A DNA stretch of 64,000 bases from the NCBI RefSeq assembly GCF_028401385.1, contig NZ_JAQOMR010000001.1, positions 1,056,501-1,120,500 on the forward strand, given 5' to 3'. A model generated the notes under the pieces. It did not search any database. It saw nothing but the letters and a program-made list of their open reading frames with translations, and had not been told where the DNA came from. This DNA comes from Marinicella algicola. GTDB taxonomy: Bacteria; Pseudomonadota; Gammaproteobacteria; Xanthomonadales; Marinicellaceae. How positions within the stretch are numbered: the stretch's first letter is position 1; every line of letters begins with the position of its first letter. This document shows, piece by piece, positions 2,909-60,545 of the stretch. Position numbers and translations under genes: made by a program.

Positions 2909-3679
2909 TCAGATCGCCAGATATTCCTCACGCAGTTCTGCATTATCGAGCACGTCCTGGGCGCTGCCGGAGAAAACAACCTCACCGGTATCCATGATCA
3001 CTGCGCGGTCGGATAGCCTGAGGGCGGCCACCGCATTTTGTTCGACGATGATTGTGGTGATGCCGAGATCGCGGATCTGGCCGACTATCTTCTCGATTTC
3101 CTGCACGATGACCGGAGCCAGCCCCTCATAGGGTTCGTCGAGGAACAGGATCTTGATCTTGCGGGCAAGCGCGCGGGCCACGGCCAGCATCTGCTGTTCG
3201 CCGCCGGAAAGCGTGATAGCTTCCTGATTGCGCCGTTCGGCAAGGCGCGGAAAACGGTCGTAGACCTCCTCGATCGACCAGCCCTTTTCGCCGGCGACTT
3301 GAGCAAGGATCAGGTTTTCTTCCACAGTAAGCCCACCGATGATCCGCCGGTCTTCCGGCACCAGCTGCACACCTGACAATGCGGCCTGGAAAGCGCGTTT
3401 GTTGTGCAGCGGCTCGCCATCGAGCCAGATCTCGCCCTGACTGAGCGCCGGACTGTCGAGACGGGCAAGGGTTCGAAGCGTTGTTGTTTTGCCGGCGCCA
3501 TTGCGGCCGAGTAGTGAAAGGACCTCGCCTTTCTTGATGTCGAAGGACACGCCCTGCACGATATAGCTTTCACCATACCAGGCATGGATGTCGCGAACCG
3601 ACAGAAATGCATCATTGACTGTTTCCGACACGTTGACCTGCTCCCCGGCGAAATTGCGTTTTTCCGTGACCACGTTCAT
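2909..3679 (-). CDS. ABC transporter ATP-binding protein, LivF type
   Basis: ATPase of 256 residues for a branched-chain amino acid/amide-type (HAAT) importer. It shows Walker A (GRNGAGKTT), the signature LSGGEQQ, Walker B (ILFLDEP) and the LivF-typical EDRRIIGGLTVEENL segment. It is the last gene of a minus-strand operon and its ATG overlaps the stop of the LivG-type gene (ATGA). The N-terminus is about 25 residues longer than in E. coli LivF. It would energise uptake at the cytoplasmic face; the substrate cannot be told from this subunit. Confidence 0.9.
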   Translation of the reverse strand: MNVVTEKRNFAGEQVNVSETVNDAFLSVRDIHAWYGESYIVQGVSFDIKKGEVLSLLGRNGAGKTTTLRTLARLDSPALSQGEIWLDGEPLHNKRAFQAALSGVQLVPEDRRIIGGLTVEENLILAQVAGEKGWSIEEVYDRFPRLAERRNQEAITLSGGEQQMLAVARALARKIKILFLDEPYEGLAPVIVQEIEKIVGQIRDLGITTIIVEQNAVAALRLSDRAVIMDTGEVVFSGSAQDVLDNAELREEYLAI

Positions 3680-4443
3680 TCGTGGGCCTCCCCGAGATAA
3701 GCTTCCCTGACCTTCGGATTGCCGCGTACCTCATCGGGAGAACCTTCCGCGATAATGCGGCCCTGGGCAAGAACCGAGATCTTGTCTGCCAGAGAGAATA
3801 CGACATGCATGTCATGCTCGATGATGACCTTGGTCATGCCGCGGGCCTTGATCCGCTGCAAAAGCTCGATGGTCATGTTGGTGTCATGGCGGGCCATGCC
3901 GGCTGTCGGCTCGTCGAGCAACAACAGTTTCGGTTTCTGGATCAGACACATGGCCAGTTCCAGCCGGCGCTTGTCGCCGCGTGACAGCGATCCGGCTTCA
4001 TGATGACGACGCGCGGAAAGGCCGATATCCTCGAGCATGAATTCTGCCTCGTCGCGGATTTCCTTTTCGCCGGCAAGCGCTTTGATGGCATTGAGCCGGA
4101 AGGCACCGTCGCGCCGGGCAAAGGCCGGGATCATGACGTTTTCGATCAGCGTCAGGTCCGGAAATATTTCAGGTGTCTGAAATACGCGCGAAACCCCCAT
4201 CTGGTTGATCTCGTGCGGTTCGTGCTCGTCAAGCGTCTGCCCGTCGAAGATCACATGGCCGTGGCTCGGCTTGATGCGCCCGATGCAGACATTGAGCAGT
4301 GTCGACTTTCCGGCGCCGTTTGGGCCGATGATGGCGTGAACCTTGCCGCTTTCGACCTCGAGATTGACATCGGAAAGGGCGCGCAGACCGCCGAAGCTCT
4401 TGTGGACGTCGGCAACGTGCAGGACGATGTTGTTGTCTGCCAT
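3676..4443 (-). CDS. ABC transporter ATP-binding protein, LivG type
   Basis: The chosen start (MADNNIVLHVADVHKSFGG) removes an alanine-rich upstream extension and gives the usual 255 residues. Walker A is GPNGAGKST, the signature region LSRGDKR and Walker B LLLLDEP, followed by the LivG-type switch histidine segment KVIIEHDMHV. It partners with the LivF-type ATPase to power the LivHM-type permeases. It starts 5 bp after the permease gene and overlaps the next gene by 4 bp, so the operon is tightly coupled. Confidence 0.9.
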   Translation of the reverse strand: MADNNIVLHVADVHKSFGGLRALSDVNLEVESGKVHAIIGPNGAGKSTLLNVCIGRIKPSHGHVIFDGQTLDEHEPHEINQMGVSRVFQTPEIFPDLTLIENVMIPAFARRDGAFRLNAIKALAGEKEIRDEAEFMLEDIGLSARRHHEAGSLSRGDKRRLELAMCLIQKPKLLLLDEPTAGMARHDTNMTIELLQRIKARGMTKVIIEHDMHVVFSLADKISVLAQGRIIAEGSPDEVRGNPKVREAYLGEAHE

Positions 4444-4447
4444 GGTT

Positions 4448-5591
4448 TTACTCCGCTGGCTGAATTTTGGCGGCCGACTGTGCCTTGCGACCGCCGCCGC
4501 CGCCGCCGAAGCGGGCACGCAGGCGTTTGACGCCTTCCATGATGCCGCCGGGCAGGAAGATAACGATGGCCATGAAGATCAGCCCGAGTGTCAGATGCCA
4601 GCCATCGCCGACAAACAGCGATAGAAGCCCGACCAGCGGGGTCTCGATGAAGTCCGGCAGGAATGACAGTGCACTGTGCAGCGCCTGATCATTGAACGAG
4701 GAGAAAATGTTCTCGAAATATTTGATCACGACCGCCCCGATGACCGGGCCAAGCAGCGTGCCGACTCCGCCGAGAATGGTCATCAGAACCACTTCACCCG
4801 AGGCCGTCCACTGCATGCGCTCGGCGCCCGCCAGCGGATCTGTGACGGCCATCAGCGCGCCGGCAAGCCCTGCGAACATGCCCGAGATGATGAAGGCGGA
4901 GCGCAGATAGGGTCGCGTGTTGAAGCCGGTATAGATCATCCGGTTTTGGTTGGTTTTACCGCCTTCAGCATCATGCCGAAAGGCGAACGGAATATCCTGA
5001 GTGTCAGGAAAAAGCAGATGAGAAGGGCGATGGCGCAGAAATAGAACCCGGCATAGCCCTGCAGCTGGATCCCGAAAAGTCAGGCGAAGGCAGGCCTTCA
5101 CCCGGCGTCAGAAACATGTGGTCGATGATGCGCGGGTCGTTTTGTGAAAGCTGCAGCCCGGTCTCGCCGTTGGTAATCGGCGTCAGCACCGAATAGGCGA
5201 GATTGTAGCTCATCTGTGCAAAGGCGAGTGTGAGGATCGAGAAATAGATACCCGAGCGGCGCAGGCTGACATAGCCGATAAGCGCTGCAAACAGCCCTGA
5301 ACAGATGACCGCGAAGACAATCGCCGGAATGGCGTTCATGGTGAAAAGCTTGAACGACCAGACGGCCGCATAGGATCCGACTCCCAGAAAGGCTGCGTGA
5401 CCGAAGGAGAGATAGCCGGTCAGACCAAACAGCAGGTTGAAGCCGATGGCGAAGATCCCGTAGATCGCGAATTTCTGCAGAAGGGCGGGATAGGCAGCAC
5501 CAAGCGGCATGAACAGGATCGGCGCCAGCAGCACAATCGCCGAAAACACGATGAACAGGATCCAGTCGTTGCGCGAAAGATTGGCAAACAT
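4448..5591 (-). CDS. ABC transporter permease, LivM type (two frame breaks)
   Basis: The N-terminal half, from [20 protein letters not shown], carries the LivM signature [20 protein letters not shown]. The C-terminal half has the EAA-like permease loop and [13 protein letters not shown]. Between about 5078 and 4955 the conserved sequence is in the third frame ([16 protein letters not shown] then LRIFRSPFG), so two single-base indels disrupt it. The combined length of about 381 residues fits the family. It forms the channel together with the LivH-type subunit. The breaks are probably sequence errors, because the rest of the operon is intact. Confidence 0.8.
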
Positions 5592-5596
5592 GCGGG

Positions 5597-6613
5597 CTAT
5601 TCCTCCATCACGCCACTGCGGCCCATGAGGCCGCGCGGCATGGTCAAGAGTATTATGACGGCAACGAGGTAGATGATCACCTGGTCAATACCGGGAATGA
5701 TGGCCTTAATCTCGTTCATCGAGGCAAAGGACTGCAGGATGCCGAGGGTGAAACCGGCAACCACAGCGCCTGGCAGCGAGCCCATGCCGCCGACAACGAC
5801 GACGACGAAGCTCAGGACCAGAAAATCCATGCCCATATGGTAGTTCGGCGGCAGGATCGGGGTGTACATCACGCCGGCGATACCCGCGACCACAGCGGCG
5901 ATGCCGAAGACGACGGTGAAACGCTTTTCGATGTTGATACCGAGCAGGCCGACGGTTTCGCGATCACGCATGCCGGCACGCACCACCATGCCGTAGGTGG
6001 TGAATTGCAGGAAGGCGAACACGGCCCCGATGATCAGGAAGGCAAACAGGAAATAGATCAGTCGCCACCAGGGGTAGACGATGAAGGCATCGGCCATGCC
6101 GAACCATGCGGCGATATTGGCGGTACCGGCAAAGGCGTCGGGGGCAGCCTGCGGTATGGGGTTGGCACCGTAGATTTTCTTGATGATCTCCTGCAGCACG
6201 ATGGCCAGCCCGAAGGTCACCAGAATCTGATCGGCATGCGGACGCTTGTAAAAGAACCGGATCAGCCCGCGTTCCATGGTGAGGCCGATGATCAGCATGA
6301 CCGGGATCGCCAGAAGTATCGAAAGCGGCACCGACCAGTTGATGATGGCAACACCCAAATCGCCGAAGGCGTATTCCATGTAGGGCACGGGGCGGGGCGC
6401 AAACAGCGCGCCTTCCACCTTTGGCGGCTGGACCGGCCATGTCAGAAGAGCATTGAAAGTGACGGCGCAAAACGCGCCAAGCATGAACAGCGCGCCGTGG
6501 GCGAAGTTGACTACGCCCAGCGTGCCGAAGACCAACGTCAGGCCAAGGGCGATCAGCGAATAGGCTGCGCCCTTGTCGAGGCCGTTCAGGAATTGAATGA
6601 TGATGGCGTCCAT
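5597..6613 (-). CDS. ABC transporter permease, LivH type
   Basis: Intact polytopic membrane protein of about 338 residues. It has the LivH hallmarks [21 protein letters not shown] near the N-terminus and [16 protein letters not shown] near the C-terminus. The start [11 protein letters not shown] at 6613 has a GGAAA-type ribosome site; two ATGs slightly upstream are too close to it. A roughly 40-residue insertion ([20 protein letters not shown]) lies between the first membrane segments. It is the second gene of the operon, 77 bp after the binding protein. Confidence 0.9.
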
Positions 6614-6690
6614 TGACCGCATTTCCACTGTTGCCGGAAGGGCCGGGCGCTTTTCGAACGCCCGGCCGAAAGTGCAGTGATCGCTTCAGA

Positions 6691-8037
6691 TCAGCAGGTC
6701 TTGGCGGTGTCGGGGCCGAGCTCGCCGCCGAAGATCGCCGGGTCGTAATCGACGTCGGTGCGCGGCACGACCTTGACGACTTTCAAGAGGTCGAACTCGC
6801 TTTGCGGATCCGGATTACCGCGCACCACGAGCACATCCTTCATGCACTGATGGTCAGCGGCACGGTAAAGCGTTGGACCATTGCCCATGCCGTCGAATTC
6901 GAAGCCTTCCAGCGCCTTGATGACTGCCGGTGCGAAGAAGGTGCCGGCGCGTTCCACCGCATCGGCATAAAGCAGCGCCTGAACGTAGCAGGTGTGGGCG
7001 GCCTGTGACGGCGGGAAGCCGTATTCGGCCCCGAAGGATTTGACGAAAGCCTGGCTGCCCGCATCATCCAGAGACCAGTTCCAGTTGGCCGAGCCGAGGA
7101 TGTTTTCAGCGGCCGAACCGGCGCCTTGCGCCATCAGACGCGAGAACAGCGGCACCACGATTTCGAAGTTCTTGCCGTTGACCTGCTTGTCCTTCAGGCC
7201 GAACTGGACGGCCTGGGTCAGCGAATTGACCATGTCGCCGCCATAGTGATTGAGAATCAGCACATCGGCGCCGGAGTTGAGAACCGGGGTGATGTACTGC
7301 GAAAAGTCACCAGCGCCGACTGGTGTCTTGACGGCCTGAACGGTTTCCCACCCGAGGCCTTCGGTGGCATTCTTGATCGATTCTTCCTGGGTCCAGCCCC
7401 AAGTATAATCGGCAGTGAGGTGATAGGCGCGACGATCTGAACCGTATTCTTGCTGGAGCACCGGTGCCAGCGCTTCGCCGGACTGGTAGGCGTTGAAGAA
7501 GTGGCGGAAACCATAGCGGCGTTTGTCCTTGCCGGTGGTGTCGTTGGAATGGGTAAGGCCAGCCATAAAGATGACGCCCATATCCTGGCACAGGCTTTGA
7601 ACTGCAACCGCAACGCCGGAGGAAGAACCGCCGGTGATCATGACCGCGCCTTCCTTTTCGATCATGCGCTTGGCACTGTCACGGGCGGCGTCGGATTTGG
7701 TTTGGGTGTCGCCGGTGACGTAGTTGACCTTCTTGCCGAGAATGCCGTTGCCCTTCAGCGCCTTGGACGAGAAAGTGGCGAGCATGCCGCCGTCGCCTTC
7801 GCCGTTCAGGTGTTTGGCGGCAAGCTGCAGCGCCTTCATTTCATCCGCACCCTCATCGGCGTATGGCCCGGTCTGCGGGACATTGAAACCGAGGGTGACG
7901 GTACTGCCGGTTGGCATGTTGCACGACATGTCGGCGGCATAGGCCCCGCGCATGAAGTGCATCGGGGCGGCCAGCGTTACACCGGCGGCGGCGCCGGCTC
8001 TCAACAGGCTGCGCCTGTTCATGATAAATTTCGACAT
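6691..8037 (-). CDS. ABC transporter substrate-binding protein (type I fold, Tat signal)
   Basis: The start MSKFIMNRRSLLRAG has a strong GGGAGGAG ribosome site. The twin-arginine motif RRSLLR, a hydrophobic stretch and AYA suggest Tat export to the periplasm. The mature part is a Peripla_BP_6/LivJ-like protein (VTLGFNVPQTGPYADEGAD; AVMITGGSSSGVAVAV; GAGDFSQYITPVLNSGADV). At 448 residues it is longer than LivJ and closer to urea- or amide-type binding proteins, but I cannot assign the ligand. First gene of the importer operon and divergent from the ycgN-like gene. Confidence 0.88.
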   Translation of the reverse strand: MSKFIMNRRSLLRAGAAAGVTLAAPMHFMRGAYAADMSCNMPTGSTVTLGFNVPQTGPYADEGADEMKALQLAAKHLNGEGDGGMLATFSSKALKGNGILGKKVNYVTGDTQTKSDAARDSAKRMIEKEGAVMITGGSSSGVAVAVQSLCQDMGVIFMAGLTHSNDTTGKDKRRYGFRHFFNAYQSGEALAPVLQQEYGSDRRAYHLTADYTWGWTQEESIKNATEGLGWETVQAVKTPVGAGDFSQYITPVLNSGADVLILNHYGGDMVNSLTQAVQFGLKDKQVNGKNFEIVVPLFSRLMAQGAGSAAENILGSANWNWSLDDAGSQAFVKSFGAEYGFPPSQAAHTCYVQALLYADAVERAGTFFAPAVIKALEGFEFDGMGNGPTLYRAADHQCMKDVLVVRGNPDPQSEFDLLKVVKVVPRTDVDYDPAIFGGELGPDTAKTC

Positions 8038-8277
8038 CGGACTCCTCCCAAGTCGTCTGAAAAAGGCTGCGCGCTCCTTAAGGGCGCAGAGGCGCTTTCC
8101 TCCAAAGCGCATGGGAGACAGTAACAAGCAGTCAAATTGTCGCAATTGAGCGAAAGTGATAAGACCTTTGTTGAAGGTAGCGGAGACTTACGCTCTTCAA
8201 TTGCTGCGAGGGTGACGGGTTGAACCGCACGGCGCGGCAGCGCATATAGCGTCCTTCAGGACGAAGGTGATCCGCAC

Positions 8278-17761: not shown

Positions 17762-18403
17762 ATGAGCGCGAGTTTTCACGAAGTGCGTTTTCCGTTGCGG
17801 CTTTCGCTCGCCGTCAGCGGCGGACCGGTGCGCCGCACCGATATTGTCAGCCTTTCCAACGGACGGGAGAACCGCAACCAGCGCTGGCGCAATGCGCGGC
17901 GCGCTTATGATGCCGGTTCCGCCGTGCGTTCGGTTGCCGACCTTTATGAGTTGACCGAATTCTTCGAGGCGCGGAGCGGCCAGCTTCACGGTTTCCGTTT
18001 CCGCGATCCGGTGGACTTCAAGTCCTGTGGGCCGCTTGCCGAACCCGGCCCTTTTGACCAGCAGATAGGGACAGGTGATGGCGAGAACACCCAGTTCCAG
18101 CTCATCAAGATCTATGGCGACGCGGCGGCCTCCTTTGAGAGGGTCATCGGAAAGCCGGTGGTCGGTAGCGTGCGGGTTTCGGTCGACGGGATCGAGGCGC
18201 CGGACATCGACTTTTCTGTCGATGCAACAACCGGGATCGTGACATTTTCTGGTGGAGCCATCCCGGCGATCGGGGCCGAAATATTCGCCGGATATGCCTT
18301 CGATGTTCCCGTGCGGTTCGATACCGACCGCATCGATATCAACATGAAAGCCTTCAACGCCGGCAGCGTTCCTTCGGTCCCGTTGATGGAGATTATGCCA
18401 TGA
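17762..18403 (+). CDS. GTA distal tail protein, DUF2460 (g12)
   Basis: 213 residues, intact. DUF2460 features are FHEVRFPLRLSLAVSGGPVR, RTDIVSLSNGRENRNQRW and the repeated FRFRDPVDFKSC segment. It corresponds to RcGTA g12, the distal tail component connecting the tube to the baseplate. It starts after GAGGAGG and overlaps g13 by 4 bp. Confidence 0.92.
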   Translation: MSASFHEVRFPLRLSLAVSGGPVRRTDIVSLSNGRENRNQRWRNARRAYDAGSAVRSVADLYELTEFFEARSGQLHGFRFRDPVDFKSCGPLAEPGPFDQQIGTGDGENTQFQLIKIYGDAAASFERVIGKPVVGSVRVSVDGIEAPDIDFSVDATTGIVTFSGGAIPAIGAEIFAGYAFDVPVRFDTDRIDINMKAFNAGSVPSVPLMEIMP

Positions 18404-19290
18404 GAGTGATGAATGCTGCGCTCGAGGCGCACCTTTCACAGGACACCACAACGGTTTGTTACTGCTGGCGGTTGACGATGAAGAACGGCGCAGTGCTTGG
18501 CTTTACCGAGCATGACCGCGATCTGTTTTTCGCCACTACGCTTTTTCTGGCGGCCAGCGGTTTTGTTGCGTCAGGTTTTGAGGTCGAGGAGGGGCTTGCG
18601 GCCAGCACCAATGAGGTTGTTGGCGGGTTTTCGCATGACGCGATCACCGAGGAAGCGCTGGCGGCTGGCGACTATGATGGCGCCCGCGTGGAGATCTTTA
18701 TCGTGAACTGGCAGGAACCTGGTCAGCACCAGATCATTCAGGTGAGTGAGGTTGGAGAGGTTTCACGCGAAGGCGGTGGTTTCGGTGCGGAGTTGCGTGC
18801 GATCACGCACCGCCTATCGCAACCGCAGGGGCGCAGTATCACGCGGCGTTGCGACGCGGTGTTCGGCGATGCCGCCTGCGGTTTTGATCGGCAGAGCCCG
18901 GGATTTTTCAAGACGGGGACGATTGTAGCCGCCGAAAGCGAAACCCGGCTTGTTATTGCGGCGGATGGAACTGCCGCCGAAGGCTTCTTTTCCCACGGCT
19001 TGCTAACGTTCGAGAGCGGAGGCCTTTCCGGACGCGCTTTCGAAATTGAAACCAGTGGTCTTTTGGCAGGTACGATCCGCATCGATCTCTGGTTGCCTCT
19101 GGAAAAAATGCCGGATGCCAGTGATCAGGTGCGGCTGACGGCAGGCTGTGACAAGGCCTTTACCACCTGCAGGGAGAAGTTCGGAAATCATCTCAATTTC
19201 AGAGGGTTCCCCCATGTTCCGGGCGCCGATTTTGCTTATTCCTATGTGAATGGCGAGAGCGCGCATGACGGAAGTCCGTTGTTCAAATGA
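18400..19290 (+). CDS. GTA baseplate hub protein, DUF2163 (g13)
   Basis: 296 residues, intact. It has the DUF2163 N-terminus (CYCWRLTMKNGAVLGFTEHD), a paired-cysteine motif TRRCDAVFGDAACGF, and the C-terminal GCDKAFTTCREKFGNHLNFR. In RcGTA the orthologue binds an Fe-S cluster and forms the hub. Overlaps g12 and g14 by 4 bp each. Confidence 0.92.
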   Translation: MRVMNAALEAHLSQDTTTVCYCWRLTMKNGAVLGFTEHDRDLFFATTLFLAASGFVASGFEVEEGLAASTNEVVGGFSHDAITEEALAAGDYDGARVEIFIVNWQEPGQHQIIQVSEVGEVSREGGGFGAELRAITHRLSQPQGRSITRRCDAVFGDAACGFDRQSPGFFKTGTIVAAESETRLVIAADGTAAEGFFSHGLLTFESGGLSGRAFEIETSGLLAGTIRIDLWLPLEKMPDASDQVRLTAGCDKAFTTCREKFGNHLNFRGFPHVPGADFAYSYVNGESAHDGSPLFK

Positions 19291-19717
19291 CGGTGCTGGG
19301 GGAGCGGGCGGTCACAGAGGCCGAGAAATGGATCGGAACGCCCTACCGTCACCAGGCCTGCGAGATCGGGGTCGGATGCGACTGCCTTGGGCTTGTGCGT
19401 GGCGTCTGGGGCGCTCTTTACGGTGAGGTCCCCGTGTCGGCGCACCATATGCTGCCGACTGGGCCGAGCGGACCGGAACCGAGCGGTTGCTCGAGGCCGC
19501 CCTGCACCACTGCGGAACGGCCATTGCCCCAAACTGCATGGAGCCGGGCGATATTCTGCTGTTTCGCTGGCGATCACAGTTCGCCGCCAAGCACGCCGGT
19601 ATTCTGAGCGCACCGGATTATTTTATCCACGCCTACGAACAGGCCGGTGTCATCCGTTCGGCGCTTGTGCCCGGATGGCGGCGAAGGATCGCCGGCGTGT
19701 TCCGCTTTCCGGCATAA
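19287..19717 (+). CDS. GTA NlpC/P60-type cell wall peptidase (g14), one frame break
   Basis: The catalytic cysteine lies in IGVGCDCLGLVRGVWGALYG, and the histidine motif in SQFAAKHAGILSAPDYFIH. Near 19443 the frame changes: the correct path reads APYAADWAERTGTERLLEAA. The joined product of about 143 residues is the usual length of GTA peptidases. They degrade the recipient or host peptidoglycan during DNA delivery. Confidence 0.85.
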
Positions 19718-19836
19718 GCCGCCAGCACCATGCAGTGAGCGCGGGAAACCGTGCATCCGCACCAGGACATCTGAAACCAGAGCAGGCCTCGCTACCGAAA
19801 CCGGCGCGCGCCTTGCATTTACGTTGAGGCGAAGAG

Positions 19837-22800
19837 ATGGCGACAATCGTTTTCAGGCCGCCGGCGCTGCCATCGGAGGAATACTGGGCCCTTTCGGGGC
19901 GATTGCCGGCAGGGCAGTCGGCGGGCTGGCCGGTGCCGCGTTTGACGGCTCGATCTTCTCCGGCGGGCGCAGCGTCAAAGGGCAGCATCTGGCGACTGCG
20001 CGGGTTGGCGGAGCCGAAGAGGGCGCCGTTATCCCGCGGGTCTACGGCACGTCGCGGGTGGGCGGTACGCTGATCTGGGCGACACGGTTCGAGGAGCAAG
20101 TGACCGAGGAACGCTCGGGCGGCAAGGCGACGGGACCGACGGTGGAGAGTTTTGCCTATTTCGGTAATTTCGCGTTCGGTATTTGCGAGGGGCCGGTTGC
20201 CGCGATCAGACGGGTATGGGCCGATGGCCGCGAACTGGATCTGACCACGATCCAGATGCGGTTTTATCCCGGTGATGAGGGGCAATTGCCGGATCCGCTG
20301 ATCGAGGCAAAGCAGGGTATGGGCGCTGCCCCGGCCTATCGTGGGCTTTGCTATGTGGTTTTCGATCGGCTGCCGCTGGATGGTTTCGGAAACCGGATAC
20401 CGGTGTTTCAGTTCGAGGTGTTGAGGCCGACGGGAAAACTTGAGACCCAGATAAAGGCGATTGCCGTGATCCCCGGTGCGACCGAGCACGGGCTGTGCCC
20501 GTTTCCTGTAACCGAGGCGCTTGGCAGCGGACAACAGAGGATACTGAACCGCAACACGCTTGTCGGGGTAACGGATTTCGAGGCCTCGATTGACGAACTG
20601 ATGGCGCTTTGTCCCAATCTGGAACGCGTGGCCCTGGTGGTCACGTGGTTCGGCTCGGACCTCAGGGCGGGAGAATGCCGGATCCGTCCGGGTGTGGAGA
20701 CATCCTTTCGCAGCGAGGAAAGCACCCCTGGAAGGTTTCGGGGATCGCGCGCGCGTCGGCCTATGTTGTGTCCACCATTGATGGTGGCCCGGCCTATGGC
20801 GGTACGCCCAACGATGCCGGGTTGATGGCGACGATTGCCGATCTCAGGGCGCGGGGCCTTGAGGTCTATCTCTACCCATTCATCATGATGGATGTCCCTT
20901 CTGCCAATGGTTTGCCGGACCCTTATGGCGGTGCCGAGCAGGCGGTCTATCCCTGGCGCGGGCGCATTACATGTCATCCGGCTGCCGGTTGGCCGGGCAC
21001 GAGCGACCGGAGCGTGGCAGCGCGGTCGGAGGTCGAGGCATTTCTCGGCACCGCTGAGTCGCATCATTTTACCCCGGCTGCCGATGGTGTTGCATTCGCG
21101 GGTTCTGACGAGGGATACAGGCGACTGGTCCTGCATTATGCGCATCTCGCGGCGGCCGCAGGCGGTGTCGAGGGGTTCATCATTGGCTCTGAGCTGCGGG
21201 GACTGACGTCCATCCGTGATGACAATGGTGCTTTTCCCTTTGTCGAGGGGCTGGTCGAGCTGGCTGCCGATGTGCGCGGTATTGTGGGGCCGTCAACGGC
21301 GCTGACCTACGGTGCGGATTGGAGCGAATATTTCGGTTACCACCCGAATGATGGCAGCGGCGATGTTTTCTTCAACCTCGATGCGCTGTGGGCAAGTCCT
21401 GATATCACCGCTGTCGGTATCGACAATTATATGCCGCTTTCCGACTGGCGGGACGACGATCTTGCGTCCCAAAATCCCGATGGCTTCCGTGTCACGACAG
21501 ATCCGTCCGCGCTCGGGAGCCAGATCGCGTCGGGCGAGGGGTATGACTGGTACTATCAAGATGACGCTGCACGGGCCGCTCGCCTGCGCTCGGCGATTAC
21601 GGATGGACTGGCTGGCAAGCCCTGGGTCTATCGATACAAGGATCTCGCCGGCTGGTGGTCGCACCCGCATCATGATCGGATCGGGGGCAGTGAGATGGCA
21701 ACGCCGACGGCCTGGACGCCGATGTCAAAGCCGATCTGGTTCACCGAACTTGGCTGTCCCGCTGTCGACAAGGGCAGTTGCCAGCCGAATGTATTCGTCG
21801 ATCCAAAATCGGCTGAATCTGCTTATCCTTACTTTTCCAACCGCAGCCGTTCGGATGATGAACAGCGCAGGTTTCTGGAGGTGCATCTTGACTGGTGGGC
21901 TGGCCCGGAAGCTCCGGCCAATATGGTGGATCCGGACCGCATCTTTCTCTGGTGCTGGGATATCCGGCCATACCCGGCCTTTCCCGGGACGCGGATCTGT
22001 GGAGCGATGGCAGAAACTGGGAAGCCGGCCACTGGCTGAATGGTAGGCTTGGCACATCAACACTTGCAGATACCGTGCGCGCACTTCTTGCCGACCACGG
22101 GTTTACCGATTGCGATACCGCCCTGCTGAGCGGCGATCTGGTCGGCTATCAGCAGGCAGATATCAGCTCCGCGCGAGATCTGATCGAGCCGTTGCTCTCG
22201 CTTTATGCTGCAGACAGTATCGAGAGGGCAGGCAGACTGACGTTTCGTTCACGCAACCGGACCAGCCTGCCGCCGCGGACAATCGAGGTGCTTGCCGAGC
22301 GCGACGACAGCGCGGGGCTTTGGCGCGAAACGCGGCGGCATGATAGTGACCTCGCCGGTGAGACGTCGATAACCTATTTCGATCCCGCGACCGATTATGA
22401 GCAGGCGTCTGCACGATCGGGCCGCGCGCTGGAGGCAAATGATCGCGTCTTGCGCTACGGCCTGCCGGCCGTACTGCCCGAGGCGACCGCGCTCGAACTG
22501 GCGAGAATACTGTTGCGCGAAAACCGGGTCGCGTTGCGCGAGATCAGCTTCGAGCTTTCACCGCAGGAGCAGAGCCTGGAAGTCGGGGATGTCATACGCC
22601 TGCCCGACGGGCCTGCCGGTCGTTTTATGGTCACGCGCGCTGAAGTTGCCGAGACGATCCGGTTTGAGGCGCGCTCGTTCATCGCGAGTGGCGGCGGTGG
22701 TGTTCGCGCGCAAACACGACAGGGCGCCGGCGATCTTGCATCGGCCGGATTCGCTCCGAGGGTCGTGTTCATGGACCTCGCACGCGATGGCTCGGGCGCT

Positions 22801-53038: not shown

Positions 53039-53292
53039 TACTGAAAGGCCGTCAGCTTGTTGACAAAGCCCGCTTCCCGCTCATTCGTTATGCTCGGGCC
53101 TGTCCCGAGCGTCCCGGCACCTCTCGCCACGACAAGCGTCTCGGATGAAAAGACGAAATCATTCAGTCTGTTTTAAAACAAAAGCGGCGCCTATGCGGCA
53201 ATCTGGTTGGATCTTCGGCACAGGGCCGAGGATGACGTCCTTGGAATGGATAGCTGTGTCAGCCAACTGACGGTCTCTACTGAAAGGCCGTC
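53039..53292. repeat. RIME-like intergenic palindromic element flanked by 15-bp direct repeats
   Basis: TACTGAAAGGCCGTC occurs at 53039-53053 and again at 53278-53292, where it is the last codons and stop of amn on the minus strand. Between them lie two hairpins: GCTCGGG-CCTGT-CCCGAGC (53092-53110) and ATCTTCGGC-ACAGG-GCCGAGGAT (53211-53233). The two-palindrome layout and the words CTCGGGCCTGTCCCGAG and CCGAGGATGACG resemble the mosaic intergenic repeats of Rhizobiales. The outer repeats suggest a duplication made on insertion. Confidence 0.6.
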
Positions 53293-54773
53293 TCGTAAAA
53301 GCTTCTGAGTTTGCGCGAATGTAGCCTTTCCGGTGGCATGGAGGCCAGTTTCTGCACGGCCTTGATACCGATGTGCAGGTGTTGACGGACCTGGGTCGTA
53401 TAAAAGGCGGTTGCCATGCCTGGCAGCTTCAGTTCACCGTGAAGCGGCCTGTCGGAAACGCACAGCAGCGTGCCATAAGGCACGCGGAAGCGGAAACCGT
53501 TGGCCGCGATCGTCGCCGATTCCATGTCAAGGGCGATCGCGCGCGACTGGGACAGGCGTTTGACCGGACCGCTCTGGTGCGAGAGTTCCCAGTTGCGGTT
53601 GTCTATGGTGGCAACGGTACCGGTGCGCATCACCCGTTTCAGTTCGTATCCCTCAAGCCCCGTGACTTCGCCGACGGCGTCCTCGAGGGCCTGCTGGACC
53701 TCCGCCAGTGCCGGGATCGGTACCCAGATCGGCAGGTCGTCGTCGAGAACGTGATCCTCGCGTACATAGGCATGGGCAAGCACATAGTCGCCGAGCTTCT
53801 GGCTGTTGCGCAGACCGGCACAGTGGCCCAGCATCAGCCAGGCATGGGGTCTCAGCACCGCGATATGGTCGGTAATCGTCTTGGCGTTGGAGGGGCCTAC
53901 GCCGATATTGACCATGGAAATGCCCGAATTGTCGGCGCGTTTCAGATGATAGGCTGGCATTTGCGGCATGCGGACCCCGGCATGTCCGCCCTCGGGCTCG
54001 ACTTCGCCGGGTAGGGTGATGTTGTTGCCGGGTTCGACGAAGGCGCTGTAGCCTTCGCCGCCCTTGGCCATCATCTCACGTGCAAAGGCGCAGAACTCGT
54101 CGACATAAAACTGATAGTTGGTAAACAGCACGAAGTTCTGGAAATGCGCCGAACTTGTCGCGGTATAGTGGCTAAGGCGCGCCAGCGAATAATCGATGCG
54201 CTGGGCCGTGAATGGCGCCAGTGGTTGCGGCTCGCCCGGCTCCGGCTCGTATTCGCCGTTGGCGATCTGGTCGTCGGTGGTGTTGAGATCGGGGGTGTCG
54301 AAGATGTCGCGCAGCGGCACATCGGCGAGCGCTGCCAGATCGGCTTCGACATGGGTGTTCTCGCCGAAGGCGAAGTGCAACGGAATGGGGGTCTCCGATT
54401 CCCCCACCGTCACCGCAACACCATGGTTCTTGATCAGCAGGTCGAGTTGTTCGATTAGGTAGTTCTCAAACAGCACCGGGTGGCTGATGGTCGTGGCATA
54501 GGTGCCCGGCGTTGCCACATGTCCGAAGGACAGGCGCGAATCGGTCAGGCCGTAGCTGCCGGTCTCGATGCTGACTTGCGGATAGCAGGCGCGGTAGCGA
54601 CCTTTGATCGGCGCGCCGCCGGCAAGTTCAAGAAAGGCATCAATGACAAAACGCGTGTTGCGTTTGTAGAGCGCCTGCAAGGCTTTTACGGCCTCTTGCG
54701 CATCTGTGTAGCTTTGCGGTTCCACCGGATCCGGCGAGATAACGTTTGCTGTCAAAGGTTCGTTCTCGTGCAT
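53277..54773 (-). CDS. amn: AMP nucleosidase
   Basis: 498 residues, intact. It starts MHENEPLTANVISPDPV after GAGGG. Family features include FGHVATPGTYATTISHPVLF, the phosphorylase-like core NIGVGPSNAKTITDHIAVLR, PHAWLMLGHCAGLRNSQKLG, and the active-site segment ALDMESATIAANGFRFRVPY. It hydrolyses AMP to adenine and ribose 5-phosphate. The last codons form one copy of the 15-bp repeat bordering the downstream element. Divergent from the GST gene. Confidence 0.92.
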   Translation of the reverse strand: MHENEPLTANVISPDPVEPQSYTDAQEAVKALQALYKRNTRFVIDAFLELAGGAPIKGRYRACYPQVSIETGSYGLTDSRLSFGHVATPGTYATTISHPVLFENYLIEQLDLLIKNHGVAVTVGESETPIPLHFAFGENTHVEADLAALADVPLRDIFDTPDLNTTDDQIANGEYEPEPGEPQPLAPFTAQRIDYSLARLSHYTATSSAHFQNFVLFTNYQFYVDEFCAFAREMMAKGGEGYSAFVEPGNNITLPGEVEPEGGHAGVRMPQMPAYHLKRADNSGISMVNIGVGPSNAKTITDHIAVLRPHAWLMLGHCAGLRNSQKLGDYVLAHAYVREDHVLDDDLPIWVPIPALAEVQQALEDAVGEVTGLEGYELKRVMRTGTVATIDNRNWELSHQSGPVKRLSQSRAIALDMESATIAANGFRFRVPYGTLLCVSDRPLHGELKLPGMATAFYTTQVRQHLHIGIKAVQKLASMPPERLHSRKLRSFYETAFQ

Positions 54774-54890
54774 GGCGACCCTCGTTTTTGTAGAAACAGC
54801 GTTCCACCGGCTTTCGCTGGTCTTTTTCAGTTTCAAATCGATCTATATCGAAGAGGACGATATTTTGCGACACGATGAGGATGATTTTTC

Positions 54891-55588
54891 ATGACCGCAC
54901 CGATCGAGCTTTTCTACTGGCCGACGCCGAACGGCTACAAGATTGCGATTTATCTTGAAGAGGCCGGCGTTCCCTACAACGTCAATCTGGTGAACATCGG
55001 CAAGGGCGACCAGTTCAAGCCGGAGTTTCTCAAGATTTCGCCCAACAATCGCATGCCTGCGATCATCGACCCCGAAGGGCCAGGCGGCGAACCTGTCTCG
55101 GTTTTTGAATCCGGAGCGATCCTTCAGTATCTCGGCCGCAAGTTCAAAAATTCTATCCCGAGACCGAACGCGAACGCATTGCCGTCGAGGAATGGCTGTT
55201 CTGGCAGATTGGCGGGCTTGGCCCCATGGCCGGGCAGGCACATCATTTCCGCAATTATGCGCCCGAAAAGATTGCCTATGGCATTGACCGCTACACCAAT
55301 GAGGTCAACCGGCTTTACGGCGTGATGGACAGGCGGCTTGGCGAGGCGGAATATCTCGGCGGTGACTATTCGATCGCCGACATGGCCTCGGTCGGCTGGG
55401 TCAGGTCATACGAGGCGCAGGGGCAGAATCTCGATGATTTTCCGAACCTGAAGCGCTGGTATGAGGCCGTGATGGACCGACCCGGCGTCAAGGCCGGGAT
55501 CGCCGTCGGCCAGCAAGAGCGTGCCAAAATGAACCTGGCGTCAGACAAAGACGCTCAATCGGTTCTCTTCGGACAGAAAGCGCGCTGA
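54891..55588 (+). CDS. Glutathione S-transferase family protein (one frame break)
   Basis: About 232 residues when joined. Thioredoxin-fold N-terminus IELFYWPTPNGYKIAIYLEE with LKISPNNRMPAIIDPEG, and the cis-Pro and ESGAILQYLGRKF segment. After a missing A near 55148 the helical domain continues: ERIAVEEWLFWQIGGLGPMA and YLGGDYSIADMASVGWV. It resembles the YfcG/YghU (Nu-class) group, which has disulfide-bond reductase activity. Preceded by a short palindrome TCGAT-CTAT-ATCGA about 50 bp before the start. Confidence 0.85.
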
Positions 55589-55624
55589 GCGCCATCACTC
55601 TTTGAAGAGTTTCAGGCGTTGGGA

Positions 55625-56735
55625 TCAGTCCAGCGCCTGAAGCACGGTCGGCAGTTCTCGGGCGAACAGCTCAATGTCTTCGCTCAGGCCTGTCGAAACC
55701 CGGATGCAGCGGTCGAGCGGCGCCACGCCCGGCATGCGGATGAAGACACCGCGCGCGCCCAGCCCTTCAACAATGGCGCGCGAATAGGCGCCGTCGCGGC
55801 CGCAGTCGATGGCGACGAAATTGGTTGCTGATGGCAGCGGCGAAAGCCCGTTTTTACGCGCGATCCGGGCAATTTCGTCACGCGCATCGCGGATGCGGCC
55901 GATGACGCTCTGCAAATAGGCCTGATCGGCGAGGGCCGCCTCGGCGGCAACGAGGGAGAGGTGCGGCATGCCAAAATGGTTGCGGATCTTGTTGAACGCG
56001 GCAATCGTCTGCGCTTCGCCGATGACGTAACCTGCTCTGACGCCGGCCAGTCCATAGGCTTTTGAAAACGTCCGGAACCGCAGAATATTCGGCCTGTCGA
56101 GAAAACGATCGATGGCGGGAAAGGCTTCGGCCGGCCCGCATTCGCAATAGGCCTCGTCGAGCACCATCATGCAGGTTTCTGGAAGCGCGTCGACGAACCG
56201 CGCAACATCGTCCTCATGCCAGAAACTGCCCATCGGATTGTCGGGATTGGCAAAATAGACCATCGTGGCGTCATGCTCTTGAACGGCAGCCAGCAGCGCC
56301 TCGAGGTCTTCCCGGTCATGGCTGTAGGGCACGCTGATCCGCACTCCGCCAAAACCGTCGACATGGTAGTTGAAGGTGGGGTAGGCGCCAAGCGAGGTGA
56401 CGACTTTCGTGCCCGGTGAGACCACCAGCCTGACGGCCATGCCCAGAAGGCCGTCCACACCTTCCCCGATCATCAGGTTTTCGATCCCGCAGCCGTGGTG
56501 ATCCGCCAGCGCCTTGCGCAGTGACAGGTGTTCGGAATCCGAATATTTCCAAATGTCGCCAGCAGCTTCGCGGATGGCCGCGAGCACGGAGGGGCCGGGC
56601 CGAAACCGCTTTCATTGGCGCCGATCCGGGCGATGATCGGGTAATTGCGGGTGCGTTCGAGTGCTTCTGGCCCGACGAAGGGGACCGTGGATGGCAGTTC
56701 CTGATCAAGGGCGTGAAGCGCGAAAATTCAGCCAT
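55625..56735 (-). CDS. HisC-like PLP-dependent aminotransferase (two frame breaks)
   Basis: About 370 residues when joined. From ATG 56735 (MAEFSRFTPL) the conserved path runs DQELPSTVPFVGPEALERTR and IGANESGFGPAP in a second frame, then AAIREAAGDIWKYSDSEHLS in a third (breaks near 56710 and 56600). The core is intact: YFANPDNPMGS, VLDEAYCE, and the PLP lysine in FRTFSKAYGLAGVRAGY. It belongs to the histidinol-phosphate aminotransferase family. Standing alone, away from his genes, it may act on aromatic or other amino acids. Confidence 0.82.
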
Positions 56736-56824
56736 GCTATGCGTTCCGGTTTATTTGAAAAGGCGCTTCAACATAGTCACTGCGACCTGGAAGGCAAGAT
56801 GGGATAGGGTGGCACCAACGCAAA

Positions 56825-56845
56825 ACGGCGCCCGTAAGGCGCCGT
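56825..56845 (-). terminator. Intrinsic terminator downstream of a DUF1127 gene
   Basis: Stem ACGGCGCC (56825-56832)/GGCGCCGT (56838-56845) with loop CGTAA. Read on the minus strand it is followed by TTTTG. It lies just beyond the stop of the DUF1127 gene at 56871. Confidence 0.65.
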
Positions 56846-56870
56846 AGCAAAACTATCAGTCTGGCTTGTC

Positions 56871-57014
56871 TCAGCGAAATGCGCGGGCTGCAACACGCTC
56901 GATATCGCCCGGAAGCAGGCCGATATCCTTGAGCTCTGCGGCAGTGAGATTGCGCAGCTGGGAGCGGGTACGACGATAGCTGAACCATTTCATGGTGAAG
57001 TCAAAGGGATGCAT
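56871..57014 (-). CDS. DUF1127 small protein
   Basis: 47 residues, MHPFDFTMKWFSYRRTRSQL, then the DUF1127 signature NLTAAELKDIGLLPGDIERV. It starts after GAGGAAA. DUF1127 proteins are small, arginine-rich, and linked to RNA turnover and stress or phosphate responses in Rhodobacter and Agrobacterium. Second of two such genes here on the same strand, with its own terminator. Confidence 0.85.
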   Translation of the reverse strand: MHPFDFTMKWFSYRRTRSQLRNLTAAELKDIGLLPGDIERVAARAFR

Positions 57015-57234
57015 GGGTGTTTCCTCGAATTTTCCGGCAGTCTGTGGCTGCATTGATTTTGACTGAGAAAATACAGGGAGAATCGCGAAACGTCGTGTGC
57101 AGTTTTTATGCAACTGCCATGCATTTGTGCAGGGTATTGCATATTTTGAGGGCTGCGTGGCGATGGTGGGTAGTTTTAAGGCACCCGCAGATGACAGAGC
57201 TCAATTCGGGGAACGGATATCGTTCAGGCATAAA

Positions 57235-57289: not shown

Positions 57290-57433
57290 TCAGAATGCGG
57301 CCTTGCGGGCAACGCGACGGATATCATCACGGTTGATACCAAGATCGGACAGTTCGCGTGCATTCATGCGGCCGAGTTCGGTGACGGTCTGACGGTACTT
57401 CATCCAGTTGTTGAACGAACGGGTCATGCTCAT
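57290..57433 (-). CDS. DUF1127 small protein
   Basis: 47 residues, MSMTRSFNNWMKYRQTVTEL, then GRMNARELSDLGINRDDIRR, a clear DUF1127 sequence. The start follows AGGAGAGAG; an upstream ATG at 57478 is less likely. The anti-SD sRNA at 57650-57775 lies about 220 bp upstream on the same strand. Confidence 0.87.
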   Translation of the reverse strand: MSMTRSFNNWMKYRQTVTELGRMNARELSDLGINRDDIRRVARKAAF

Positions 57434-57649
57434 GTTTCTCTCTCCTGTTTGCTGGGGCGCTTGTTTGCTGCGCCTCAATCTCTGATGACTGGGATATAGT
57501 CCTTTCCCGGTAACTCGGTCAGGGGCTTATCGGTAAAGCCGCTATGCACTGGATGCATGGCGTCGTCCGAAGGGCAGGATTCGCCTATCAAGATAGAGGC
57601 AGGTCTGCTTGAAATGGTGTGGGAGGTGGCCGACAATCGCCGAAAAAGG

Positions 57650-57775
57650 CAAAAAATAACGCCCACCGGGGAGGAGGATCCGGTGAGCGTCATTTGCTTT
57701 GGCTAACGACTGGGAGGAGGAGCGTCGTCGGCCCATCAAAGCGCGCTGGGAGGAGGAGTGCGCAGCTTCGAATAT
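57650..57775 (-). ncRNA. Candidate trans-acting sRNA with three CCUCCUCCC (anti-Shine-Dalgarno) loops
   Basis: On the minus strand CCTCCTCCC occurs three times in about 90 nt (57748-57756, 57712-57720, 57669-57677). Each copy is framed by complementary arms: GCGCACT/AGCGCGC, ACGACGCT/AGTCGT, and the 11-bp stem ACGCTCACCGG/CCGGTGGGCGT (57680-57690 with 57659-57669) followed by TTATTTTTT, a terminator. This is the architecture of the rhizobial alpha-r14 (NfeR1/Smr14C) and Rhodobacter CcsR 'cuckoo' RNAs, which bind ribosome sites of mRNAs. The 5' end is estimated; no promoter is assigned. Confidence 0.8.
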
Positions 57776-57951
57776 CTACCCGGAGGCCGGGTCAGGTGAT
57801 GTTGCCTACTCGGTTCGTCTGAGTGGGCTCAATCATCTTGTTGAACCCAATATAGGTGAGGTGGCCGGAAAAGTGCAGTGCCATCTCGGAATAGAAGATA
57901 TGCGCCAAGCGCATGTCTGCATTTGTGTGCATCTGCGAAGAGACAGTCGCT

Positions 57952-60545
57952 TCAGTTGATCACGGAAGGTGGCTGTTTGCCCAGTAGTGCGATCAGATGA
58001 TCTTCATTCATGGGGCGTGAGAAATAATAGCCCTGTTGCAGGAAGCACCCGAGCGACCGCAGCATTTCAGAGTGACTGCGCGATGTGACGCCTTCGCAGA
58101 TGACGCCGATGCCAAAGGATTTCGCGATCCGTGTGATGGTTTCGACGATCTGAACGCTCTCCTCGGAACTGATAATGGGCGTCACAAGCTGCCCCGCGAT
58201 CTTGAGCCGGTCGGGACGGACCAGGGTCAGCCCCACCAGTGAGGCATAACCGGATCCGAAATCATCCAGATCGATACCGATGCCCAGTGCCCTGATGGCG
58301 TTTACCGTCTTGATCAGCGCGGCATCGGGGCGGTCGAAGGGAATCGATTCGAGTAGTTCGAAGTGAACGATGCCAGGGGCAGGTCGAGGGCTGAGAGCAT
58401 GGACACCAGTGCGGGATCACGCAAGCGCTGCGAGGAAACGTTGACCGATATGCCCGGGAGTGAGACGCCGGATTCCTTGCTGCGTTCGATGATTGACAGC
58501 GCCTTGCGGAAGACGATGTCGTCGATTGCGTCAAGCAGCCCCAATTGCTCCGCCACATCGAGAAATGCCTTGGGCTCCAGGAGGTTGCGGCGCGGATGCT
58601 GCCAGCGGGCCAGCGCTTCGACGCCGATAATTTCGGATGTCCTGACATCGAAAATCGGCTGGTAGTACGCCGTGATTTCGCCGGCTTCGACAGCCTCCTG
58701 CAGTTCGTCCGCCTGTTGCTTGAGCGAGAAAGTCTTGGCCATCAGATTGCTGGTGTAGTTCACGGTGCGGGCCCGCCCGCGGTTTTGGCTTCATAGAGCG
58801 CAAGGTCGGCTTTGGTCAGCAGGTCCGAAGCCGTGTCGCGGAATCCTCCGCGGTTGCGATCCCCAGGCTGACACCCATGCGGCAAGACCTCCCATTTATG
58901 CGCACGGGCTTCGCAAATGAAGCGGTCACTGCGTTGGTAAAGCCCTCCACGTCACTGTCTTCCCGCATTAGCACGACGAACTCGTCGCCTCCGGTACGCG
59001 CCAGGAAATCGTTCGGGCCGAGTTTCTCGTTGAATTTTCCCGCGGCGTACCGCAGGACTTCGTCGCCGAAGACGTGGCCCATAGTGTCGTTGATGGTCTT
59101 GAAGCCGTCGAGGTCGATCAGCACGATCTTCATGCCTGCCGGCAGCTTGCCGTCGGTCTGTGCGGCTTCCATCTGCTTTTCGAAATGTCTTCGGTTGGGA
59201 ATGCCGGTCAAGGTGTCCTGCAGCGCAATTTTCTCCATGCGCCGGCGCGCTTCTTCGACTTCGATATGCTGGGCCTCAGCCTTGGCCTTGGCTTCCGTGA
59301 GCGCTTCCTGAAGGCGCTTGTCGGCCGAGACGTCCCAGTTGACGCCGACGAATTTGCGCCGGCCGTCGGCATCAGCATAGGCATTACCTGCCGAACGGAC
59401 TGTCTTTTCCTGGCCACCGGGGGTGATGATCCGATATTCAGTGAGGAAGCCTTTGTCTTTTTCAGCATCCTCCCAGCTGAATTGCCTGAATTTCTCCTGG
59501 TCTTCGGGATGAAGGGAGGCGCTCCAGCTGTCGAAGCTCTGGATGTGGCTTCCGCCTTCCATTCCGTAGATCTTCAGGATCTGGTCATCCCAGACCTGCT
59601 CGCCGGATTCCAGGTCGTGTTCCCAAAGGCCGATATTGGAGGCGTTGAGCGCCACATCGAGCTGGCGCGAGAGGTTCTCCACCGCCATCATGCTGCGACG
59701 GATATTGTTATTGTCGCGAAGGCGCGCCCGAAACAACAGCAACAGCGCGCCGAGCGGTGTGAAAAAGCGATTGCGAATACGATCAGCGCGAAGCCGAATG
59801 CCTTGCGCCAGTCGAAACTGCCTTCTGAAAGCGCCAACGGCGCGACGCTGACGGTCCATGTGGAGTTTCCGATGTTCAGTTTCGTCTGCGCCGGGTTTTC
59901 CGTCTTCAGGATCCTGGCGCCGGCTGTGGCCTCTCCGCCTGAACCGGCAAGCGTGGCTGTCTGAACGCTCAATTGTATTGTTTGCTCCAGCTCCATCAGG
60001 CCGATTGCATCGAGAATCGCTTCGAAACCAACCGCAACGTCGAGCGTCCCATCCGCAAATGCGTATCTGAAGATCAGCACACGTTGGCTATTGGGCAGGG
60101 AATAAGGACCGAAAATCTGCCGGCTGCCCTCCGATGCTCCGGCAGGAACGTCCACGGCTCGCATGGTCTGTTCAATATCACTCGGAAAGACTACGGTTCG
60201 GTCTTCCTGTCGAAGAATCACGGCTTTTGTCCACGGTGCAGCAGTAAGGTAGGCCTGAACCGTATCGTCATATGCGGCGAGCCCGTCCGTGTCGCTCAGT
60301 GACGACGACAATGCCACGCCGACCTTTTCTGTTAGGTCCAGAACCGACTTGAGGGCCTTGGCAAAGCCTGCCGCGCGGATTTCTGCCTGCTGCTGTCTTT
60401 CCTGTTTTACGGCTTCGCGAATGTAGAAGCCGCCGACAAATGTTCCGGTTGCGACTGTCGTGAAGAAAAGCAGGGTCAGGAGCGCAAATAGCCTGATCTT
60501 TGCCCGGTGCTTCTGCGGTATGCTGTTCGCTTTCAGTCTTGTCAT
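57952..60545 (-). CDS. Membrane GGDEF-EAL c-di-GMP protein with PAS domain (about four frame breaks)
   Basis: About 864 residues when joined. Helix 1 (LFALLTLLFFTTVATGTF), a periplasmic sensor region, helix 2 (FGFALIVFAIAF), a PAS domain (NIGLWEHDLESGEQVWDDQI), and a GGDEF domain with intact FLARTGGDEFVVLM. Then an EAL domain with VEALARWQHPRR, FELLESIPF, DLDDFGSGYASL and the lysine in RPDRLKIAG. The I-site position reads GPND, so product inhibition via RxxD is absent. Both active-site signatures are present, so it may make or degrade c-di-GMP. Breaks near 59763, 58838, 58775 and 58375. Confidence 0.85.

Follow-up and report, generated by a model that had tools for sequence, protein, structure and literature searches.

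A small anti-Shine-Dalgarno RNA of the ar14/NfeR1 family and a neighbouring DUF1127 gene with promoters that look co-regulated

The window, that is, the whole stretch of 64,000 nucleotides that was analysed, carries on its minus strand a small RNA (sRNA) of the ar14/NfeR1 type, followed by two genes for small DUF1127 proteins, called here D and D'. Because the sRNA and D are preceded by near-identical promoters of a regulator-dependent type, they look like one co-regulated switch, and the locus probably consists of two separately started but co-regulated units of the LsrB/VtlR type, one for an anti-Shine-Dalgarno (anti-SD) sRNA and one for the small protein D, with a third relative besides. 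What is new here is the promoter shared by the sRNA and the first DUF1127 gene (TGCR-N6-GCAT-N44-CTATAT); otherwise the locus is a normal member of its family, in an association that is already known.

The sRNA and its family

The first-pass annotation of this DNA had described three anti-SD motifs in hairpin loops on the minus strand, the last of them in an intrinsic terminator, and had proposed a 'cuckoo' RNA of the ar14 or CcsR kind, with a covariance search as a check. That search supports the first of these families and not the second. An ar14/NfeR1-type anti-SD sRNA (Rfam RF02344) is located at 57654..57776 (minus strand) by covariance match and fold: the RF02344 model scores 88.3 bits in the window, against a gathering score of 58.8 (cmscan), and aligns with the sRNA end to end (positions 1-123 of 123). 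The CcsR1 model (RF02791) stays below its threshold when the sRNA is scanned (24.4 bits against 65.3), which rules out CcsR membership as far as this model is concerned. Judged by these matches, the sRNA belongs, as an ordinary member, to an established family of small RNAs that prevent translation initiation, one characterised by a 123-nt, Hfq-independent transcript, and it resembles NfeR1 of Sinorhizobium meliloti (RF02344) in its full-length model match and its three hairpins with CCUCCUCCC loops.

The motif CCTCCTCCC occurs in the sRNA at 57748..57756, 57712..57720 and 57669..57677 (all on the minus strand; pattern matches that form loops in the predicted fold). In the whole window, both strands taken together, it is found four times, where 0.66 occurrences would be expected, and none of 100 shuffles reached four. 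The predicted fold of the minus strand has three hairpins, each with CCUCCUCCC unpaired in its loop; its energy is -52.9 kcal/mol (z = -5.1), and none of 200 shuffled sequences was equally stable. Motif 3 is the loop of a long terminator hairpin that is followed by a T run (57651..57694, minus strand; sequence and fold). The coordinates and counts are as originally described. A simple terminator scan, which accepts loops of 3-8 nt, does not have this hairpin in its list; the predicted loop is of 10 nt.

It might be argued that the motifs are a chance run of C-rich repeats and that there is no RNA gene. Seven of the 120 listed public stretches with the exact triple pattern are titled Actinobacteria, Firmicutes or myxobacterium, and these were judged to be chance occurrences by their titles alone. 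The covariance match, the fold z-score, the conserved neighbours and the promoter all oppose this explanation for the window, and we consider it refuted, its probability being negligible, because of the compensatory changes: in an alignment of 30 of the 61 ar14 relatives above the cut-off, both-sided changes are seen at 24 of the 27 consensus pairs. Pairing in the first stem is disrupted in as many as 8 of these 30 relatives. Of the loops, motif 1 is invariant across the 30 sequences and motif 2 nearly so; motif 3 shifts in the alignment. Endobacterium has an ar14-like RNA (L253, at the beginning of the ar14 region) with four consecutive copies of CCTCCTCCC, preceded by the promoter pattern that is described below for the window.

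The DUF1127 genes and their linkage to the sRNA

The two DUF1127 genes that had been reported next to the sRNA are confirmed by matches to PF06568 (cut-off 23.3 bits), and both follow it on its strand. Both encode proteins of 47 aa, D at 57290..57433 (minus strand; 53.5 bits) and D' at 56871..57014 (minus strand; 38.6 bits), and the order along the strand is sRNA, D, D'. The genome to which the window belongs has three ar14 copies and seven DUF1127 matches, and every one of the three copies has a DUF1127 gene within 250 nt on the same strand, copy 1 being arranged as D-RNA, copy 2 as D-RNA-D and the window copy as RNA-D-D'. Nearby, genes for a GST (54891-55588, plus strand), an aminotransferase (55625-56735, minus strand) and an EAL protein (58262-58803, minus strand) are apparently split between frames, by sequencing errors or decay; further away, at 18400-22036 (plus strand), lie genes of the phage-tail or gene-transfer-agent type (baseplate hub, BR0599, GTA TIM-barrel).

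The link between DUF1127 genes and 'cuckoo' RNAs is already published, as the 'CIN1 locus'. In the passages cited, ccaF1 and CcsR1-4 of Rhodobacter form one RpoHI/RpoHII transcript, and their association is given this name (PMC10253847; PMC8307010). What the CIN1 locus of Rhodobacter sphaeroides shares with the window is that a DUF1127 gene and CCUCCUCCC RNAs lie on the same strand; in CIN1, however, the protein comes first and there is a single RpoHI/RpoHII transcript, whereas in the window the RNA comes first and the LsrB-like promoters are separate. The other two ar14 copies of the window's genome have DUF1127 upstream, as in Rhodobacter.

How general the linkage is can be seen from public genomes, in which the exact triple motif was found in at least 120 stretches (a sample). 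Out of 42 genomes, 20 were searched for ar14, DUF1127 and promoter sites: the window's own and 19 behind public stretches that had been found by the triple motif, not by DUF1127. They contain 61 ar14 matches over the cut-off, and DUF1127 lies within 1 kb of 32 of these, in no case on the opposite strand (0.15 expected). It is upstream only in 18 of the linked copies, downstream only in 11 and on both sides in 3. Among the 120 listed stretches, every DUF1127 match at 1 kb or less from a triple is likewise on the strand of the triple. For 41 of the 121 DUF1127 matches in the 20 genomes there is an ar14 within 1 kb, and since 29 of the 61 ar14 matches have no DUF1127 within that distance, the pair is not obligatory.

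The earlier claim of an ancient pair of DUF1127 protein and anti-SD RNA, rearranged in this genome, had come with the suggestion of such a synteny check, and its two parts fare differently. The link is conserved and far beyond chance. A rearrangement special to this genome, on the other hand, is rejected, because the order RNA-D-D' is also found in 7 of the 19 further genomes searched (G256, G258, G260, G262, G263, G265 and G267) and the genome's own other two copies have DUF1127 upstream. When the window ORFs were compared by tblastn with the 120 listed public stretches, only identities of 26-41% were obtained, none of them beside the sRNA in the same order.

A tree of ar14 copies (140 rows, 147 columns) is unrooted, has 65 of its 137 inner branches open and serves for broad grouping only. 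Seven stretches whose titles are not alphaproteobacterial were left out of it, as were triples at 24-30 nt or less from the edge of a stretch, and 20 of the 140 rows, with a flank under 1 kb, have no class. The window copy falls in a set of 32 rows, with DUF1127 upstream in 15, downstream in 11, on both sides in 5 and one solo, and all 11 RNA-first rows of this unrooted and weakly resolved tree are within that set.

Closest relatives

For the AMP nucleosidase encoded near the locus, identity is 91% with the protein of Martelella mediterranea IOP_24 and at most 79% with those of the other 40 named genomes compared. The sRNA aligns to the same genome at 87%, and the 3.9 kb downstream of it (window ~53278-57182) at 79%; at the orthologous place, M. 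mediterranea has kept the RNA and D', and D is absent. On account of the nucleosidase identity and the synteny, the window's genome appears to be Martelella or near it, and the recorded kinship sets were for the same reason excluded from the comparison. In the recorded 'family' set (33 genomes), ar14 or DUF1127 is found in the window's genome (G000) only. In the recorded 'order' set (250 genomes), ar14 exceeds the cut-off in G000 only, 15 other genomes having weak matches below it, and DUF1127 is present in one genome besides G000. A 16S search of G000 gave no match. This near-absence of both elements in the recorded kin is at odds with the Martelella-like gene and synteny, and the recorded kinship may be wrong.

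The promoters of the sRNA and of D

Before the sRNA lies an LsrB-like box, TGCGCTTGGCGCAT (57900..57913, minus strand), which is one letter off the published TGCA-N6-GCAT (TGCG, i.e., G for A at the fourth letter). It is followed after 44 nt by the -10 element CTATAT (57850..57855, minus strand), 17 nt upstream of which CTGCAC occupies the -35 position (57873-57878, minus strand). The box of D, TGCATCCAGTGCAT (57544..57557, minus strand), fits the published TGCA-N6-GCAT, and its -10, again CTATAT, is also 44 nt away (57494..57499, minus strand). D' has a weaker box-like stretch (57116..57131, minus strand; by eye), with half-sites 5 nt apart and outside the strict pattern, and its letters are nearly identical in M. 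mediterranea.

The idea that box and -10 are a constant distance apart came from three ar14 loci read by eye. In the form TGC[AG]-N6-GCAT-N42-46-NTATA[TCA], this strict pattern has two sites only in the window, one upstream of the sRNA (57850-57913) and one upstream of D (57494-57557), with a spacer of 44 nt in both; shuffled windows contain on average 0.02 strict sites with a spacer of 43-44 nt. Both promoters are absent from the list of an E. coli-type sigma-70 scan. Counting from the -10, a leader of 67 nt is predicted between the start of the RNA and the ar14 match (57777..57843, minus strand), and the box would lie near -70 to -57 of this start. The predicted leader holds a 14-codon ORF (57792-57836, minus strand; from sequence), which may or may not encode a leader peptide; M. 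mediterranea has GTG-ATC-GAG in place of the window's ATG-ATT-GAG, and the later letters differ (by eye).

NfeR1 is described, in the passages cited, as activated by LsrB at TGCA-N6-GCAT (-72 to -60), repressed by NtrC and provided with a sigma-70 promoter, CTTAGAC-N17-CTATAT, just before the RNA (PMC10746234). The window sRNA is like it in its -10 (CTATAT) and in an LsrB-like box at a nearly equal distance. It is unlike it in its -35 (CTGCAC-N17-CTATAT instead of the CTTAGAC type), in the position of the promoter about 75 nt before the RNA, in the predicted 67-nt leader before the ar14 part, and in the DUF1127 genes directly downstream. According to excerpts of the literature on this regulator, VtlR, as LsrB is called in Brucella, is there an activator of AbcR2 and of three DUF1127 genes (PMC12595884), and VtlR of Agrobacterium binds abcR1, atu1667 (a homologue of one Brucella small protein) and vrsA, its targets varying from species to species (PMC7486931); LsrB is said to be confined to Rhizobiales (PMC11975290). 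The window is comparable to the LsrB/VtlR regulon of Agrobacterium, Brucella and Sinorhizobium in its sRNA, its small DUF1127 proteins and the shape of the box, but its putative membership is deduced solely from box and spacing. The passages of this literature for the three genera do not state joint control of an ar14 and a neighbouring DUF1127 gene, and among the papers searched none combines DUF1127 with NfeR1 or with CCUCCUCCC.

Two other explanations have to be weighed at this point. In the first, the sRNA is simply a relative of NfeR1 with its own separate control, and the DUF1127 genes are its neighbours through descent alone, neither regulated nor working together with it. This would agree with the 29 of 61 ar14 matches that stand alone and with the description of NfeR1 without a DUF1127 partner, DUF1127 being unmentioned in PMC10746234; it is rather unlikely given that DUF1127 is on the same strand in all 32 linked copies, and that box and spacing are common to the promoters of the sRNA and D. 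In the second, the sRNA is a leader or attenuator of D, whose terminator stops the RNA unless a signal permits read-through into the gene. The order of the genes, with the RNA first and D about 230 nt further on, invites this idea, and one DUF1127 gene of S. meliloti is reported to be under attenuation control in its leader (PMC12218461, in the part cited). However, a strict promoter of D's own (57494-57557) stands ahead of the gene and beyond the terminator, the sRNA forms a complete ar14 structure whose pairs show compensatory changes, and many ar14 copies have no downstream gene within 1 kb, all of which makes attenuation a very improbable explanation. Two separately started, co-regulated units are the reading that we consider probable.

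The promoter pattern across genomes

In the 120 listed public stretches, the distance from box to -10 peaks at 43-44 nt (32 of 53 sites with spacers of 15-89 nt; 7 at 43 and 25 at 44), and the gap between half-sites peaks at 6 (32 of 47). With a spacer of 43-44 nt, the pattern has 55 sites in 14 of the 20 genomes, compared with 6 in a backwards control. A target in the right direction directly follows 34 of the 55, an ar14 in 14 cases and a DUF1127 gene in 20; a further 7 precede unnamed ORFs of 52-57 aa, and the remaining 14 comprise 3 labelled alike by letters alone and 11 without any such gene. The matching of sites to genes used 61 of 81 ar14 and 44 of 121 DUF1127 matches, and the omitted DUF1127 matches, checked by eye, include none beside the 21 unmatched sites. 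The published VtlR box, GCAT-N3-TG-N3-T (PMC7486931, passage cited), is independent of the way in which the sites were found: of the 34 ar14/DUF1127 sites 19 contain it, and it is missing from all 11 sites without such a gene and from the 10 others. Its TG is absent from both window sites, as it is from 15 of the 34, and this counts against the proposed co-regulation. Rhodobacterales stretches, among the matches listed and read by eye, have no strict site.

The unnamed ORFs directly after the pattern are L227 1609-1779 (+), L230 1297-1452 (-), L232 1277-1447 (-), L239 1276-1446 (-), L246 1613-1783 (+), L249 1204-1368 (-) and L252 1684-1848 (+), that of L249 belonging to the window's genome. 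Neither Pfam nor NCBIfam gives a match; the motifs A-R-x-R-Q and L-D-D-x-x-L-K-x-x-G-x-S-R-x-x-L-R-R recur in most of them, slightly reminiscent of DUF1127. AbcR as the owner of the other promoter sites was rejected on the basis of 7 of them, in which there is no AbcR-type Rfam match.

Among the RNA-first loci, those of the window, Rhizobium daejeonense, Shinella and Sinorhizobium have the extra letters CACTGCAC near -35 in common (by eye), which is what a single inherited promoter would lead one to expect. The -10 and the first loop are separated by 52-120 nt in 8 of the 9 RNA-first loci (26 in the ninth, a second tandem copy in Shinella), 22-24 nt in four loci with no DUF1127 in view, and 208-266 nt in protein-first loci, with 410-436 nt in further ones. 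A broader hypothesis can be offered, tentatively and at a considerably lower confidence than the reading of the locus itself. The DUF1127 proteins and ar14 RNAs of Rhizobiales could be two arms of one LsrB/VtlR module whose promoter has a fixed layout (box, 43-44 nt, -10) and would also drive the unnamed family of about 55 aa. The RNA-first loci would, on the basis of the distances above and of the 140-copy tree, be former protein-RNA operons that have lost the upstream protein frame, so that an RNA of the 3' UTR became a free sRNA on the old protein promoter.

Predicted targets and proposed mechanism

The sequence GGGAGGA-N4-9-ATG has 121 sites in the window's genome versus 12 in the backwards control. 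Among 20 proteins scanned from the first 30 of the 121 SD sites by position, 10 are transporter components. The rough background, 30 of the 59 window ORFs (21 with any Pfam match), contains 4 transporters, 3 of which belong to a probable operon whose first gene, a predicted target, encodes a periplasmic binding protein and carries GGGAGGAG ahead of its ATG (8035-8049). The ABC transporter operon at 2912-8145 (minus strand) comprises ATPases, branched-chain-type permeases and the periplasmic binding protein, and GGGAGGAG is the SD of its first gene. The predicted abundance of transporters fits the targets of NfeR1, which is described in the passages cited as acting on ntrB and two transporter mRNAs via three redundant loops (PMC10746234), but purine-rich SDs are common.

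In the proposed mechanism, a LysR-type regulator of the LsrB/VtlR kind would bind the TGCR-N6-GCAT boxes 44 nt upstream of the -10 elements and switch on the sRNA, of about 120 nt or, with its leader, about 190 nt, which would end at its own terminator. The same regulator would switch on the 47-aa D from a separate start. The three CCUCCUCCC loops could then pair with purine-rich SDs and block the translation of many mRNAs, chiefly those of solute transporters, while D may, as CcaF1 does, act on RNA processing, or else target kinases such as PhoR, on which small DUF1127 proteins act in Agrobacterium (PMC12501420, passage cited). The analysis itself establishes the family membership, fold and conservation of the RNA, the gene linkage and the promoter geometry; the regulator, the transcription, the targets and the role of D are inferred.

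Implications

If the shared promoter holds, the control of NfeR1 by LsrB, the control of DUF1127 genes by VtlR and the pairing of CcaF1 with CcsR would come together in one testable regulon, and the rule TGCR-N6-GCAT-N43/44-TATA would predict its members in each genome. The RNA-first loci may exemplify an sRNA that has become independent of a 3' UTR. Should the hypothesis of a two-arm module be true, a mechanism joining the arms, for example a DUF1127 protein that steers RNA maturation, would be general and not specific to Rhodobacter.
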